This document shows, one piece after another, positions 13,794-18,598 of a stretch of DNA of 44,333 bases; position 1 is the first letter of the stretch; every line of letters starts with the position of its first letter. The stretch comes from Singulisphaera sp. GP187. Its GTDB lineage: Bacteria; Planctomycetota; Phycisphaerae; Phycisphaerales; SM1A02. The translations under genes were made by a program, and so were the position numbers. Location of the stretch: contig CAMBWI010000012.1 of assembly GCA_945871445.1 (NCBI GenBank), forward strand, positions 1 to 44,333, written 5' to 3'. The notes beneath the pieces are model-generated. The model was not told the origin of the DNA. It worked only from the letters and a program-made list of their open reading frames with translations, and made no database searches.

Positions 13794-13825
13794 GAAGCGA
13801 AGAGTAGCGCCGTCGCTCTGGGAAA

Positions 13826-13899
13826 TGGGGCGGCTGGGATTCGAACCCAGGTCTCACCGATTATGAGTCAGGGGCTCTGGACCGCTGAGCTACCACCCC
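13826..13899 (-). tRNA. tRNA with CAU anticodon (Met or Ile2)
   Basis: A 74-nt cloverleaf on the minus strand. The acceptor is GGGGTGG/CCGCCCC with one G-U pair, D-stem GCTC/GAGC, and anticodon loop CTCATAA with anticodon CAT. The T-arm is CTGGG-TTCGAAT-CCCAG and the discriminator base is A; CCA is not encoded. The outermost anticodon-stem pair is mismatched (C-T). CAU may be elongator Met or lysidine-modified Ile2; the C1-A72 mismatch of initiator tRNA is absent, so fMet is unlikely. Choosing between Met and Ile2 needs a tRNA-identity model. Confidence 0.95.
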
Positions 13900-13979
13900 A
13901 ATGTAAAGACCATTCTGAGACAAAAACAAAGAGGATACGAAGACCAATCGAAAAAGCATACAAGTTTACTTGCCGAGAG

Positions 13980-13985
13980 TATGAT
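13980..13985 (+). promoter_or_regulatory. Candidate -10 element of the leader-secA promoter
   Basis: TATGAT lies 24 bp before the GTG of the leader ORF; the 17-bp-spaced -35 position (13957-13962, CATACA) is weak. Transcription would start near 13992, just ahead of that ORF. No better promoter is visible between the divergent tRNA and secA. Confidence 0.35.
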
Positions 13986-14008
13986 TTGGTGCCACAATAG
14001 CACGAACC

Positions 14009-14311
14009 GTGATTTCACTCCTGCACCCAACTCTCTTTGCCCTCCTACTGACGCTTGCGGCGTTGGGTGCTCCACTCGTCTGCAATGGAAGTTCCATCGT
14101 TTTCCGTGGTTCCAAGATTGTTGCAGTGGATTCGGATTTCAGGCATAGGGGAAGTGACAGTAGTGCAACTGCAAGAGCGATTCGGGCTGGCACTCTTTGC
14201 TTTCGCACAACAAAGCACAGTAGCAATCCTGCACAATTAACCAATCACTGGTCGCAAGTTTCGATCGAGACTTGTTTATCAGCAGTGCCTCCTCCGTACG
14301 TTCAGGCTTGA
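14009..14311 (+). CDS. Candidate secretion-monitor leader peptide upstream of secA
   Basis: A 100-codon ORF with a GTG start. Residues 9-25 form an unbroken hydrophobic stretch (LFALLLTLAALGAPLVC) like a signal sequence, although the N-region has no Lys or Arg. The mature part is polar and Ser/Arg-rich. The peptide ends SAVPPPYVQA, so three successive proline codons (14288-14296) lie four codons before the stop. No clear ribosome site precedes the GTG, and weak or absent Shine-Dalgarno sites are common in this window. It is the first ORF after the candidate promoter and ends 123 nt before secA. E. coli SecM, Vibrio VemP and Bacillus MifM are signal-bearing, poorly conserved leader peptides that pause ribosomes ahead of secretion genes. 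This ORF has the same layout but no sequence match to them. Whether it is translated is unproven. Confidence 0.45.
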   Translation: MISLLHPTLFALLLTLAALGAPLVCNGSSIVFRGSKIVAVDSDFRHRGSDSSATARAIRAGTLCFRTTKHSSNPAQLTNHWSQVSIETCLSAVPPPYVQA

Positions 14312-14376
14312 TGGGTCCCTAGCCCGCAACGGGCTTCGGACTCTGAAGACGCTTCATGCAAGCGTCCCCTGCGTAC
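14296..14376 (+). promoter_or_regulatory. Three-way-junction RNA element in the secA leader
   Basis: Pairing read by eye. P1 is GTACG-tt-CAGG (14296-14306) with CCTGCGTAC (14368-14376), nine pairs with a 2-nt bulge. P2 is GGGTCC (14313-14318) with GGACTC (14338-14343), one pair G-U, then a 2x2 internal loop and AGCCCG (14321-14326) with CGGGCT (14330-14335). P3 is GACGCTT (14348-14354) with AAGCGTC (14360-14366), a perfect stem with a 5-nt loop. A T-rich run (14379-14388) follows P1. The 5' arm of P1 lies on the last codons of the leader ORF, so translation should open P1. The element could attenuate or mask secA expression. I do not recognise it as a known riboswitch class. Confidence 0.65.
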
Positions 14377-14434
14377 ATCTTCTTTTTTATGACACCTCGG
14401 CGGACTCTCCCGCTTCTTTTGAAAGTTTTCTCAA

Positions 14435-17400
14435 ATGCCAATTCCAGTCATTGATTTTTTTATCCGTAAGACATTCGGAACACAAAACCAACGCATGGTG
14501 CGTCGCTATCTACGCATCGTGGATAAGGTCAGCGAACTGGAATCAAAATTCGCAGCGATGAGCGACTCCGAGATTCGTGGAATGATTCATATTTTTCGAG
14601 AACGTGTTCGTAAAGGCGAAAAGCCGTACGACATGATTCCTGAAATCTTTGCGTGCGCACGAGAAGCAATGGATCGTTCGGTTGGAATTCGCAACATTTT
14701 CAACCCAGCACTTGGATTCGATCCTCAGTGCCTCCCTGAATCAGCTCGCAAAGCATTTTTGGAAACTCAAGCGATGATGGCTGCAACATCTCCGCGCGAA
14801 CCTTCGGGAGACCTTCGTGGTTGTCATGGTGACATTCCTGGATGGCAATTGCTCGACATTCCAATCGTCGTCTATCAAGCGGTCCGCGAACTCCTTCCAA
14901 ATAGCCGACCACCATTTCGCGCACGACCATTCGATGTGCAAATCATTGGTGGAATTGTTCTCAGCGAAGGTCGAATCGCCGAAATGAAAACCGGCGAGGG
15001 AAAGACGATCGTTGGACCTTTGGCCTGCTATCTGGCAGCCGCAGAAGAGAAACAAGTCCATGTCGTCACGGTGAATGATTATCTTGTTCAACGAGATCGC
15101 GATTGGACATTCCCATTCTTTTATGCAGTTGGTCTGACTGTTGGCGCAATTCACCCGATGCATATGCAAAGGCCCAGTGAAAAAGGAACTGCGTATTCGT
15201 GCGATGTGGTCTATGGAACCACCAGCGAGTTTGGATTTGACTATTTGCGCGACAATATGAAAGTCCGCGCTATTGATCAAGTGCAGCGATCTCGTCACTT
15301 CGCAATCGTGGATGAGGTTGATTCGACGCTGATCGATGAAGCCCGAACACCTTTGATCATTTCTGGTCCCGCATACAACGCACAACCTCGATATGAATTG
15401 TCGAATCGTTTGGCGATTCATCTTGTTGGAAAGCAGAAAGAGTGGCAGGCTGCTGAAGACAAACTACAACATTGCCGTGCGCTGATGGCGGGCGCAGAAG
15501 GTGATATTCGAAACGCTCGTGACAAAAGTTTGGTGCCCACGATAAAGAAAAGATTTGACGATGCACGAAAGCAGTTGCCAGTTCTCGAGCGTGAGCGAGA
15601 TCGCTTTACTCAATTTTACGAACTTGAAATGGACAAAAAACGTGCGACGTTGACGCATGATGGTGTTGAAGAAGCACAGAAAGAAGCGAAGATTGGCTCG
15701 TTCTATGTTGGCGAAAATATGGATATGCCTCACCTTCTCGAACAATCTGTTCGTGCGCATACGGTCTATCAACTCGACCGTGATTATGTTGTTGCGGCAG
15801 ATGAGGATGGACAATTAGGCGTTGTCATCGTCGATCAAAACACTGGCCGAAAGATGGTTGGGCGTCAATGGTCAGATGGTTTGCATCAAGCTGTGGAAGC
15901 AAAGGAAGGCGTGCGTATCAAGGAAGAGACGCAGACGATGGCAACCATCACGATTCAAAATTACTTCAAACTCTATAAGCGTCTCTCTGGAATGACTGGA
16001 ACGGCGGATACAGAAGCAACTGAATTCCACGAAATTTATGGATTGTCGGTTGTGTCGATTCCAACAAATGTTCCGATCGTCCGTATCGATCGACAAGACC
16101 TTGTCTTCTTGTCTCAGAAAGATAAATGGGAACGCATCGTCGATGAGATCAAGCGCATCCATGACACGGGAGCGCCTGTTCTTGTTGGAACAACGAGCGT
16201 GGAAAAAAGCGAAATGCTCAGTCGCATGTTGACCGAAAAACATGGCATTCGCCACGAAGTTCTCAACGCAAAGCAACACGAACGCGAAGCGGAAATAATT
16301 ATTGGTGCAGGCCAACTTGGAGCGGTGATGATTGCAACCAATATGGCAGGTCGCGGTACGGACATCAAATTAACTCCACTGCAACCCGAAGCATTGATTG
16401 AACATTGGAAGAGGCGTGATATTGCGCCACGCGAAGCAGATGCCGCTGCAGGCGAAGAAGCATGTTTGGTTCACATTCATCGCCACCTCGCAAGTCAATC
16501 TATGAAATTGCCCGCCAAGGAACTTGAATCGATGAGTGCTGACGAAGTGCGAAGAAAATTGTTGCAACACTGGGTCACTGAAGCGAGTGATCTGCCACCC
16601 AAGAAGATTCAAACGATGTTGAACAAAGCGTTGGAATCCGAACTGGATCAAGCTGGATGGAGCATTCACCGTTTGAAGTTTTTCCCGACTGTTGATGAAC
16701 TAGGAGGACTTCATATCGTTGGAACAGAACGACACGAGAGTCGCCGAATTGATAATCAACTTCGAGGCCGTTCTGGTCGGCAAGGTGACCAAGGTCAAAC
16801 GCGGTTCTATCTCGCGCTTGATGACGATTTGATGAAGATGTTTGCTGGACGAACGACACTCAATGTGCTCAGTCGTATGGGGATGAAAGAAGGCGATGCC
16901 ATCGAAGCACCGATGCTTTCTCGTGCTGTCGAGAAAGCGCAGCGCAAAGTTGAAGAGCGAAACTTCCAGATGCGCAAAACCATTTTGGATTATGACGAAC
17001 CGATGGAAGTTCAGCGTCGAAACTTCTATGGTCGTCGGCAACCGATTCTTGAAGGTCGAGCCATCAGAGATGTCGTCTTAAAGTTTCTCGACGAAGCGGT
17101 CGCAGATGCGGCAGCGACCTATCTGTCGCCATTGCATATTCCAGGAGCGATTTCGCAGTGGGTTTGGGAGTCTTTTGGGGTCATGATCGATGCTGAAAGA
17201 TTCAAAGGCAAAGACCGTGATCAAGTTTTGAAAACAATTACAACCGATGCGCCTGAAGAGGCATCGTCGCAGATCAATGTCACTATTGGCGAATACATTC
17301 CAGATGATTCTGATCCTTCTGAATGGGATCGTGATGGAGTCATTGATTGGGCTCGCACTGCATACGGCGCTGTGATCACAGCAGAGATCATCGAGAAGGA

Positions 17401-18598
17401 AGGACGACTTGGAGTTGTTCAACGCCTCGAAGCTGCATCGCAAGCGAAGTTTGCAATGATTGATCTCAGTCCGCTTGAACCATATCTCCTGCCGGGATAT
17501 GGCGCAAAGGATTTGATGAACTGGGCGGAGCGAATGCTCGGCGTACCACTTGATGCAGAAAAGATGGGAGATATGCGAGATCCTGCTGACGCAACTCGAC
17601 GGATGCAAGAAGCTGTCCGAGTTGCATATCGCAAACGCGAAATTGAATATCCGATTGACTTTGCAATCGAATTTGTAAATATCAATATTCAAGCTTTCCC
17701 AGAAGCATCTTTGACTCAGTTTTGCGGTTGGGCCCGTGGACGATTCGAATTGAATTGGACGCCTCAGGCACTCCCATCTGCAGATCCTGCAGAACTTCGG
17801 CGAATCTTGTTGGCTGAAGCGCAATCATGGGATGCCAATCGCATCAACGATCGGGTCACGCGCATACTTGCTGCATTGCGTACAGCAACGCCAGGCGCAA
17901 CTGAAAACGCAGACCTTATGACCGATGCGATTGATGGGTGGTTGACTCAGAACATATTTGTCCGCTTGAGCGAATCCGAGCGAGCGGAGGTCAAGAGTGA
18001 TCCAGAAAGTTTTCTGCGGCAAAGACTCACGCGACTGCTTCGAGAAGAATTAGAGCAATTTGAACGCTTTGTATTGCTGCAGATTCTTGATCAAGCATGG
18101 AAGGATCATTTGCACAGTATGGATCAGATGCGCGATTCGATTTCCTTCCGTTCGTTCAGTCAAAAAGATCCTCGAATTGAATTCAAAAAGGAATCTTCCA
18201 GACTGTTCGGCGAGATGCTGTCCAATGTGCGAGAGCGAGTGACTGATTTGGTTTTCAAAGGCAAATTGTCGCCACAAGCGATGCGTCCGCCAACGCAACC
18301 AGTCGTCATGACTGAGGCGGAAATCGAGCAATCGACAGAAACTGCACCTGCAGCAAGTGCTGTGGCTCCAATTGGCTCGGTGGTTCCAACGCAAGCACAA
18401 GAGCGAGACATCGCAATTGCAGATCAAGCCGGCGCACCGACTGGTCGTGCCGCAGCAGCGGTCGCTGCATCAGGAACATCAATGAATCGACCACCGAAAG
18501 TTGTTGTGCCAATTGGTGGTCCGATGGCTGTCGGGCGAAATGAAACGTGCCCTTGTGGGTCTGGGAAAAAATACAAACAGTGCTGCGGTAAGAAATGA
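14435..18598 (+). CDS. secA: Protein translocase ATPase SecA, enlarged
   Basis: The motor that pushes preproteins through SecYEG. At 1387 residues it is about 1.5 times the usual ~850-950. Motifs are intact: Walker A KTGEGKT (185-191), Walker B region VDEVDSTLIDEARTP (292-306), the SGMTGTA motif (~518-524), TNMAGRGTDI (635-644) and QLRGRSGRQGD (775-785). A zinc-binding SEC-C tail CPCGSGKKYKQCC (1372-1384), used for SecB or lipid contact in relatives, is also present. Extra sequence lies in three places. One is a charged helical insert in the preprotein-binding region (~335-420). One is ~110 residues in the second nucleotide-binding domain (~645-755). The third is a ~200-residue expansion in the scaffold/wing region (~890-1160). 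The leader at 14009-14376 and its possible control role precede it, and tRNA-Lys follows. Confidence 0.97.
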   Translation: MPIPVIDFFIRKTFGTQNQRMVRRYLRIVDKVSELESKFAAMSDSEIRGMIHIFRERVRKGEKPYDMIPEIFACAREAMDRSVGIRNIFNPALGFDPQCLPESARKAFLETQAMMAATSPREPSGDLRGCHGDIPGWQLLDIPIVVYQAVRELLPNSRPPFRARPFDVQIIGGIVLSEGRIAEMKTGEGKTIVGPLACYLAAAEEKQVHVVTVNDYLVQRDRDWTFPFFYAVGLTVGAIHPMHMQRPSEKGTAYSCDVVYGTTSEFGFDYLRDNMKVRAIDQVQRSRHFAIVDEVDSTLIDEARTPLIISGPAYNAQPRYELSNRLAIHLVGKQKEWQAAEDKLQHCRALMAGAEGDIRNARDKSLVPTIKKRFDDARKQLPVLERERDRFTQFYELEMDKKRATLTHDGVEEAQKEAKIGSFYVGENMDMPHLLEQSVRAHTVYQLDRDYVVAADEDGQLGVVIVDQNTGRKMVGRQWSDGLHQAVEAKEGVRIKEETQTMATITIQNYFKLYKRLSGMTGTADTEATEFHEIYGLSVVSIPTNVPIVRIDRQDLVFLSQKDKWERIVDEIKRIHDTGAPVLVGTTSVEKSEMLSRMLTEKHGIRHEVLNAKQHEREAEIIIGAGQLGAVMIATNMAGRGTDIKLTPLQPEALIEHWKRRDIAPREADAAAGEEACLVHIHRHLASQSMKLPAKELESMSADEVRRKLLQHWVTEASDLPPKKIQTMLNKALESELDQAGWSIHRLKFFPTVDELGGLHIVGTERHESRRIDNQLRGRSGRQGDQGQTRFYLALDDDLMKMFAGRTTLNVLSRMGMKEGDAIEAPMLSRAVEKAQRKVEERNFQMRKTILDYDEPMEVQRRNFYGRRQPILEGRAIRDVVLKFLDEAVADAAATYLSPLHIPGAISQWVWESFGVMIDAERFKGKDRDQVLKTITTDAPEEASSQINVTIGEYIPDDSDPSEWDRDGVIDWARTAYGAVITAEIIEKEGRLGVVQRLEAASQAKFAMIDLSPLEPYLLPGYGAKDLMNWAERMLGVPLDAEKMGDMRDPADATRRMQEAVRVAYRKREIEYPIDFAIEFVNINIQAFPEASLTQFCGWARGRFELNWTPQALPSADPAELRRILLAEAQSWDANRINDRVTRILAALRTATPGATENADLMTDAIDGWLTQNIFVRLSESERAEVKSDPESFLRQRLTRLLREELEQFERFVLLQILDQAWKDHLHSMDQMRDSISFRSFSQKDPRIEFKKESSRLFGEMLSNVRERVTDLVFKGKLSPQAMRPPTQPVVMTEAEIEQSTETAPAASAVAPIGSVVPTQAQERDIAIADQAGAPTGRAAAAVAASGTSMNRPPKVVVPIGGPMAVGRNETCPCGSGKKYKQCCGKK

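Follow-up and report, generated by a model that had tools for sequence, protein, structure and literature searches.

A putative uA_LPPP-type arrest leader upstream of secA in a member of the Phycisphaerales

Results and Discussion

The secA locus and its leader ORF

The window analysed here is a 44,333-nucleotide stretch of DNA (contig CAMBWI010000012.1 of GenBank assembly GCA_945871445.1, Singulisphaera sp. GP187). Its secA gene, both of whose NCBIfam equivalog matches exceed the cut-off, is preceded on the same strand by a short ORF that ends with the stop codon TGA (14309-14311), 123 nt before secA [Table 1]. Because the tRNA-Met gene upstream sits on the other strand, the leader and secA make up a rightward unit of their own. 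Three tRNAs were the only Rfam matches at the gathering threshold in the whole window. The translation of the leader, MISLLHPTLFALLLTLAALGAPLVC...CLSAVPPPYVQA, ends with SAVPPPYVQA, the Pro codons CCT CCT CCG being followed by four residues (YVQA) and the stop. Its most hydrophobic 15-mer, by which alone the signal was judged, has a mean hydropathy of 2.29 and is conserved in the genus. Searches of Pfam, NCBIfam and PDB sequences with the leader ORF returned no match, and no plasmid DNA similar to the leader region was found. Re-reading confirmed what a first-pass annotation of this DNA had described, namely an ORF opening at GTG 14009 with a hydrophobic N-terminus, three prolines near its stop and a place just before secA; the weak points that it had conceded stand as well, these being the GTG start, no clear ribosome site and no basic n-region in the leader.

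Table 1. Features of the leader region and of secA in the window
Feature	Position	Strand	Remarks
tRNA-Met(CAT), upstream of leader	13825..13900	-	opposite strand
Promoter-like element	13970..13998	+	TTGCCG 13970-13975, 17-nt spacer, TGC + CACAAT 13993-13998 (extended -10)
secA leader ORF, uA_LPPP-type (putative arrest peptide)	14009..14311	+	GTG start, 100 aa
Hydrophobic signal-like segment	14018..14083	+	codons 4-25, LLHPTLFALLLTLAALGAPLVC
Pro-Pro-Pro codons, residues 94-96	14288..14296	+	PPP end in 93/93 scanned regions
Long-range stem, 5' arm (GTACG..CAGG), codons Pro96-Ala100	14296..14306	+	predicted; pairs with 14368-14376
Hairpin inside long-range stem (CGCTT / AAGCG)	14350..14364	+	two pairs changed on both sides, 5 cells
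Long-range stem, 3' arm (CCTG CGTAC)	14368..14376	+	predicted
Hairpin 20 nt before secA start (GGCGG / CCGCT)	14399..14414	+	97% of cells paired
secA, presumed regulated gene	14435..18598	+	NCBIfam NF009538.1 926.5 bits, TIGR00963.1 866.9 bits

Just upstream of the GTG lies a promoter-like element. All 18 genus members share its TTG, 17-nt spacer, TG before the -10 and CACAAT, and in all 18 the first in-frame start codon (GTG in 15, TTG in two, ATG in one) comes 6-12 nt past CACAAT, the distance in the window being 10 nt; the reading frame over the element differs between species. A strict consensus promoter scan returned nothing at the element, which has 8 of 12 matches by count against a threshold of 9. 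The promoter reading therefore rests on conservation, from which we infer promoter activity. If CACAAT is a -10 box, the mRNA would start at, or within a few nucleotides of, the start codon; assuming a distance of 6 nt from the -10 box to +1, its predicted 5' end falls about 4 nt before the GTG. Such a nearly leaderless message would explain why no ribosome site is seen on the leader. A literature search for leaderless messages and promoters of Planctomycetes returned one paper, which deals with another organism.

Conservation of the leader and selection on its reading frame

A protein search covering 60 related genomes plus the own genome identified stop-free leader homologues adjoining secA in 15 of 18 same-genus relatives (33-73% identity, E 0.006 or better), and by position the leader is present in all 17 same-genus relatives with a secA match (G017 has none). 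One named sequence neighbour of this SecA, among the matches listed, is a Phycisphaeraceae MAG (63% identity). Across the window's order, an ORF of at least 40 codons in which no more than 8 residues separate PPP from the stop was counted on the + strand in 93 of 93 scanned secA-upstream regions, against 3.4% in dinucleotide shuffles and 3/93 on the reverse strand. The observed tail after PPP is 1-7 residues long and the stop lies 70-305 nt before the secA match. These regions derive from 97 genomes with a secA match. Setting aside G060 and G090, whose matches were all weak, and G083, where the contig ends, left 94; G041, with 129 nt upstream, was then skipped, and each of the remaining 93 offers 250 nt or more before secA. 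G017, G065, G066 and G084 had no secA match. A hydrophobic 15-mer with a mean hydropathy of at least 1.6 occurs in 91 of the 93 (the exceptions are G032, at 1.59, and G071, at 0.86 and with 262 nt upstream only), and the spacer from the signal to the second proline exceeds 30 residues in all except G071 (92/93). The leader is universal, not patchy, in the 93 scanned regions of the order, which contrasts with the general patchiness of arrest peptides in a 2024 survey (PMC10987492).

Among seven genus members the in-frame pN/pS ranges from 0.25 to 0.71 and is below 1 in all 21 pairs. In all pairs but one (20 of the 21; the exception is G011/G009) the leader frame has a lower value than either of the other two forward frames, in an alignment that was built on the protein and so favours the leader frame somewhat. 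By segment, in six species, pN/pS is 0.31 over the first 30 codons, 0.68 in the middle and 0.31 over the last 15 codons. Judged from these sequence comparisons, the leader frame is under purifying selection within the genus, most strongly at the hydrophobic N-terminus and over the last 15 codons, and the leader ORF is a real gene rather than a product of chance. The synonymous bias that the first-pass annotation had proposed as a check was thus borne out; of the two outcomes that it had held to speak against its reading, loss of the frame in relatives and absence of a Pro-rich end from homologues, neither was seen, the frame being kept and the PPP end present in every scanned region.

The same data bear on two other explanations of the locus. 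It is hardly credible that the region is a non-coding secA leader consisting of promoter and RNA structure only, with the ORF open by chance: the conserved promoter-like element and the covarying stems described below agree with such a view, but neither the lower pN/pS than in both other forward frames (20/21 pairs) nor the PPP-ending ORF in 93/93 regions against 3.4% in shuffles does. Very unlikely, too, is a small exported protein without arrest function that precedes secA by coincidence. Its hydrophobic N-terminus and its open, selected frame would be in keeping with this, and no Pfam, NCBIfam or PDB-sequence match contradicts it; yet variation is greatest in what would be the exported part (pN/pS 0.68), and the last codons are conserved, as is the PPP end (93/93), the opposite of what is expected for a mature secreted protein. 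Conserved ends with a free middle are instead what a substrate monitoring secretion needs, namely a fixed signal and a fixed arrest motif joined by a free spacer.

Relationship to uA_LPPP and other arrest peptides

In a survey of 30,175 genomes that looked for uORFs ahead of secA, secDF and yidC, Fujiwara et al. (2024) described uA_LPPP, a group of secA uORFs from the Phycisphaerales, UBA1161 and WQYP01 of the Planctomycetota; it has 52 members with XPPP among their last 15 residues, the motif being LPPP in 45, and 50 have a predicted signal (PMC10987492). One member gave full arrest in the PURE system with B. subtilis components (fAP 1) and strong arrest in vivo (TAI 22.4), whereas on E. coli ribosomes its arrest was weak (fAP 0.51, TAI 1.59) (PMC10987492). 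When B. subtilis components were used, alanine at Leu110, Pro111 or Pro111/113 weakened the arrest; in the E. coli system it was weakened by the Pro change and not by the Leu change, and toeprinting placed Pro112, the second proline of L110PPP, in the P-site (PMC10987492).

The window leader resembles this group in being a same-strand secA uORF from a planctomycete with a diverged N-terminal part, a long spacer and PPP within the last 15 residues; its hydrophobic N-terminus may, going by hydropathy, correspond to the signal of the group. Its VPPPYVQA end agrees with the XPPP accepted by the collection rule of PMC10987492, under which the Leu of the majority motif, replaced by Val in the window, is not required. 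The spacer, from the end of the 15-mer to the predicted arrest proline, measures 70 residues where the group is defined by more than 30, and the conservation of the C-terminal motif among homologues that characterizes uA_LPPP is found here in the PPP end (93/93). By analogy with the published toeprint (PMC10987492), the predicted stall would occur when Pro95 (14291-14293) occupies the P-site and Pro96 the A-site. Neither a near-leaderless promoter arrangement nor an RNA stem, as predicted here for the window's genus, figures in the account of uA_LPPP in the available excerpts of PMC10987492.

The distribution of PPP leaders across the class was followed in a set of 50 genomes (10 loci and 40 hand-picked stretches across families, which do not take in all secA matches; the contig-edge loci of G168 and G153 were left out). 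One further family member, G173, adds to the 93 of the window's order; beyond the order a PPP leader occurs in 13/13 members of family f11 and in 4/10 of f9, and the other 26 genomes of the set, outside the window's order, f9 and f11, have no consistent PPP leader apart from one isolated match in G125. Judging from the description of uA_LPPP in PMC10987492, PPP leaders in the window's order, f11 and part of f9 would fit the three orders of that group.

The first-pass annotation had called the leader a possible new arrest peptide, separate from SecM. Its kind is not new, uA_LPPP having been published in 2024 (PMC10987492); the separation from SecM holds, since the SecM motif F-x4-WI-x4-GIRAGP, as given in PMC10987492, is absent from the window C-terminus (CLSAVPPPYVQA). 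An IRAG at codons 58-61 was considered as a trace of SecM homology and rejected as chance, relatives having IQAG, IRTG or VRTG. Like SecM of Enterobacterales, the window leader bears a signal, lies directly before secA, presumably arrests near its C-terminus and is followed by intergenic RNA structure; unlike the situation in SecM, the secA of the window offers no Shine-Dalgarno (SD) sequence to sequester. With the RAPP-type peptides (ApdA, ApdP, RQH family) the leader shares Pro-Pro at the presumed arrest point and a place before Sec genes, and their stall, in which the P-site holds the third residue of the motif (PMC10987492), can be likened to that predicted here. It differs from them in having three prolines and no Arg/Gln/His-Ala/Gly/Asp before them, the motif (R/Q/H)-(A/G/D)-(P/G/S)-(P/G) being absent from SAVPPPYVQA. 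Ordinary EF-P-relieved polyproline stalls likewise involve PPP and occur at Pro-Pro bond formation (PMC4176338), but in leaders of the window's type, which precede secA, PPP keeps a set distance of 1-7 codons from the stop, and both the hydrophobic N-terminus and the residues ahead of PPP are conserved.

Loss of the leucine before PPP in the window's genus

Leu directly precedes PPP in none of the 18 leaders of the window's genus versus 69/75 in other genera. The residue at this position in the genus is V in seven leaders, including that of the window, A in five, N in four, and T and G in one each; Ala stands two before PPP in 16/18, and the fourth position before PPP is held by Leu (13), Phe (4) or Val (1). 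Outside the genus (75 members) the commonest residues before PPP are L-L-D-L. The window leader is, as far as its sequence can tell, a Leu-less version of the uA_LPPP kind. Since the residue before PPP is reported to set the strength of the stall in E. coli, where Leu is among the weak ones (PMC4176338), its replacement in the genus should matter. PPP peptides with and without the Leu, translated by related ribosomes, form a natural series with which to test how the residues before the prolines set stall strength. We note that a subclade of the genus (G002, G005, G010, G008) has an end, F-A-[A/G]-N-P-P-P-[M/I]-G-A-stop, that is far more fixed than the rest.

RNA structure between the leader and secA

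An RNAalifold prediction on seven species, with covariation scored on the same sequences from which the structure came, pairs the last five codons of the leader with the intergenic region in a long-range stem that encloses one hairpin and is followed by a second [Table 1]. In the long-range stem 95% of cells are paired and two pairs show changes on both sides (3 cells), among them a double change by which Tyr97 becomes His in G007 and G015, with a matching change in the non-coding arm. Four of the five pairs of the hairpin nearest secA are invariant, which makes it uninformative either way. The predicted structure as a whole has 94% of its cells paired, and all shifted registers fare worse. 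Double-change cells number 9 against 3.4 in shuffles (0/500) and the covariation score is 0.238 against 0.145 (0/500); two of the five covariation measures were unremarkable, pairs with a double change numbering 5 versus 2.9 (32/500 shuffles) and pair types showing no excess (11 versus 11.1, 364/500). The long-range stem appears in the single-sequence minimum-energy folds of the own genome (G000), G011, G007 and G015 and is absent from those of G016, G012 and G009.

Over all 93 regions, pairing of the codons after PPP with the downstream RNA amounts to 9.5 kcal/mol versus 7.8 in shuffles (Wilcoxon p 2.5e-6, a value overstated by kinship), and the leader RNA folds more stably than its shuffles do (mean z -1.37); where a secA match began off ATG, the match itself was taken as the secA start in this pairing and stability test. 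In the seven species of the stem, tail-downstream pairing hardly exceeds that of shuffled sequences (z -1.01 to 1.03, mean about 0.1), and the stem therefore rests on covariation rather than on stability.

A ribosome halted at the predicted site, which we take to reach about 15 nt past the P-site by the toeprint rule, would have its edge at about 14306 and cover the 5' arm. How this would act on secA is less apparent. No SD match of at least 4 nt precedes secA in any of the 18 genus members (14410-14437 in the window and its equivalents in the relatives), whereas one is found in 59/93 regions of the order, all of them among the 75 other-genus members (59/75). In a folding model with the ribosome footprint at PPP masked, the median gain in access to the secA start is 0.09 kcal/mol and the mean 0.69; the gain is above 1 in 28/93 regions and averages about zero in the genus. 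For the SD and masking tests, a secA match that began off ATG was given the nearest in-frame start within 75 nt. Sequestration of an SD, with CCTCC of the PPP codons or ACCT of the D/N-L codons as anti-SD, was rejected as a general mechanism, since the genus has no secA SD and masking opens the secA start inconsistently. With no general gain from masking and no secA SD in the genus, the stem may act otherwise (through a standby site, mRNA decay or transcription), may reinforce the stall, or may have an effect that the folding misses. As regards transcription attenuation, the long-range stem is followed by T-rich stretches in 5/7 aligned species, G007 and G015 not being among them, and a terminator scan did not flag the stem. 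The conserved stem together with the missing SD provides a testable alternative to SecM-type control.

EF-P and the PPP end

The PPP end could also make the leader a sensor of EF-P activity or of Pro-tRNA supply, tuning secA to general translation capacity. PPP alone stalls ribosomes deprived of EF-P (PMC4176338), missing EF-P is what the authors suggest may underlie the arrest of uA_LPPP in E. coli extract (PMC10987492), and EF-P is encoded before secA in some related families that have no PPP leader. Such a sensor, however, needs neither a hydrophobic N-terminus nor a fixed spacing, and these are conserved in 91/93 and 92/93 leaders, respectively; the conserved N-terminus in particular speaks for the sensing of secretion over that of EF-P. 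Furthermore, the published uA_LPPP member stalls strongly in living B. subtilis (PMC10987492), a bacterium that has EF-P. On balance we consider an EF-P sensor unlikely and favour a leader that monitors secretion.

In the class set, EF-P precedes secA on the same strand in 10/50 genomes (L250, L245, L246, L244, L258, L239, L240, L262, L263, L264), all from families without a PPP leader; two of these loci were confirmed by Pfam, and small ORFs may exist between the two genes in some. Within upstream stretches of mostly 1-1.5 kb, EF-P was found before secA in 0/94 regions of the window's order. A literature search returned no paper joining elongation factor P, secA and gene neighborhood. The own genome does encode EF-P (G000, contig C7, about 55390-55990, - strand; L311), and the tip of its loop (TPGNLRAF) is Asn rather than Lys or Arg. 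Given the tip residues of the E. coli and B. subtilis proteins, polyproline relief in the own genome may be of another kind than in those two bacteria.

A possible mechanism of secA control

Weighing the sequence evidence and the analogy with the published member, we hold it to be highly probable that the leader ORF encodes a uA_LPPP-group arrest peptide which monitors Sec export and raises SecA through leader RNA altered by the stall. The leader would be translated from a nearly leaderless mRNA, made from a promoter just before the GTG, and its hydrophobic N-terminus would go to the Sec translocon. After about 95 residues, once Pro95 has reached the P-site and Pro96 the A-site, the ribosome would halt as a result of the Pro-Pro-Pro tract and the residues preceding it (C-L-x-A-V). 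Active export would pull on the chain and end the arrest, and poor export would prolong it; the stalled ribosome, covering codons 96-100 and thereby the 5' arm of the stem, would then change the fold of the leader RNA and increase SecA synthesis. We infer arrest of the window peptide, its release by export and its effect on secA, the last step, from the stalled ribosome through the leader RNA to SecA, being the weak one.

The general proposal of the first-pass annotation, a leader of the secretion-monitor type with arrest at a Pro run, finds support in the order-wide conservation of N-terminus, spacer and PPP and in the arrest of the published member (PMC10987492). Several points argue against this explanation: the published member needs its Leu on B. 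subtilis ribosomes (PMC10987492) and all 18 genus leaders are without it; the leader has no basic n-region; EF-P, a reliever of Pro stalls, is encoded in the own genome; and the proposed control of secA is weakened by the inconsistent masking gain, the missing SD and the mixed support for the stem. As it stands, the locus would represent a secretion-feedback leader confirmed from raw sequence in a little-studied phylum.

A more far-reaching reading, which we put forward as tentative and rather doubtful, joins these observations. The genus would have a re-engineered PPP secretion monitor in which Leu has been replaced by another tunnel motif (L/F-x-A-[V/A/N]-PPP), the message is near-leaderless and, before an SD-less secA, the effect of the stalled ribosome is not to free an SD but to block the long-range stem, in which the last five codons serve as the 5' arm. 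Class-wide, the leader slot of secA would be held, depending on the family, by a PPP leader, by the GGLYGP-stop leader described below or by the EF-P gene, linking polyproline relief to SecA control.

A possible second type of secA arrest leader in other families

Two other families of the class, f8 and f19, have an ORF with the end G-[G/S]-x-x-G-P-stop in 37/42 secA-upstream regions (L265-L306), those of G203, G204, G205, G217 and G229 being the ones in which it was not found. This ORF looks like a second type of secA arrest leader, a type not named in the available excerpts of PMC10987492, and a main-text literature search for the string GGLYGP returned nothing apart from a text on silk. The most hydrophobic 15-mer ends 40-98 residues before the end of the leader in 36 of the 37, and 166 residues before it in G227. 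GGLYGP or GGLHGP forms the end of 28 of these leaders, and the spacing G-x3-GP is as in the GIRAGP of SecM, with Pro as the last residue.
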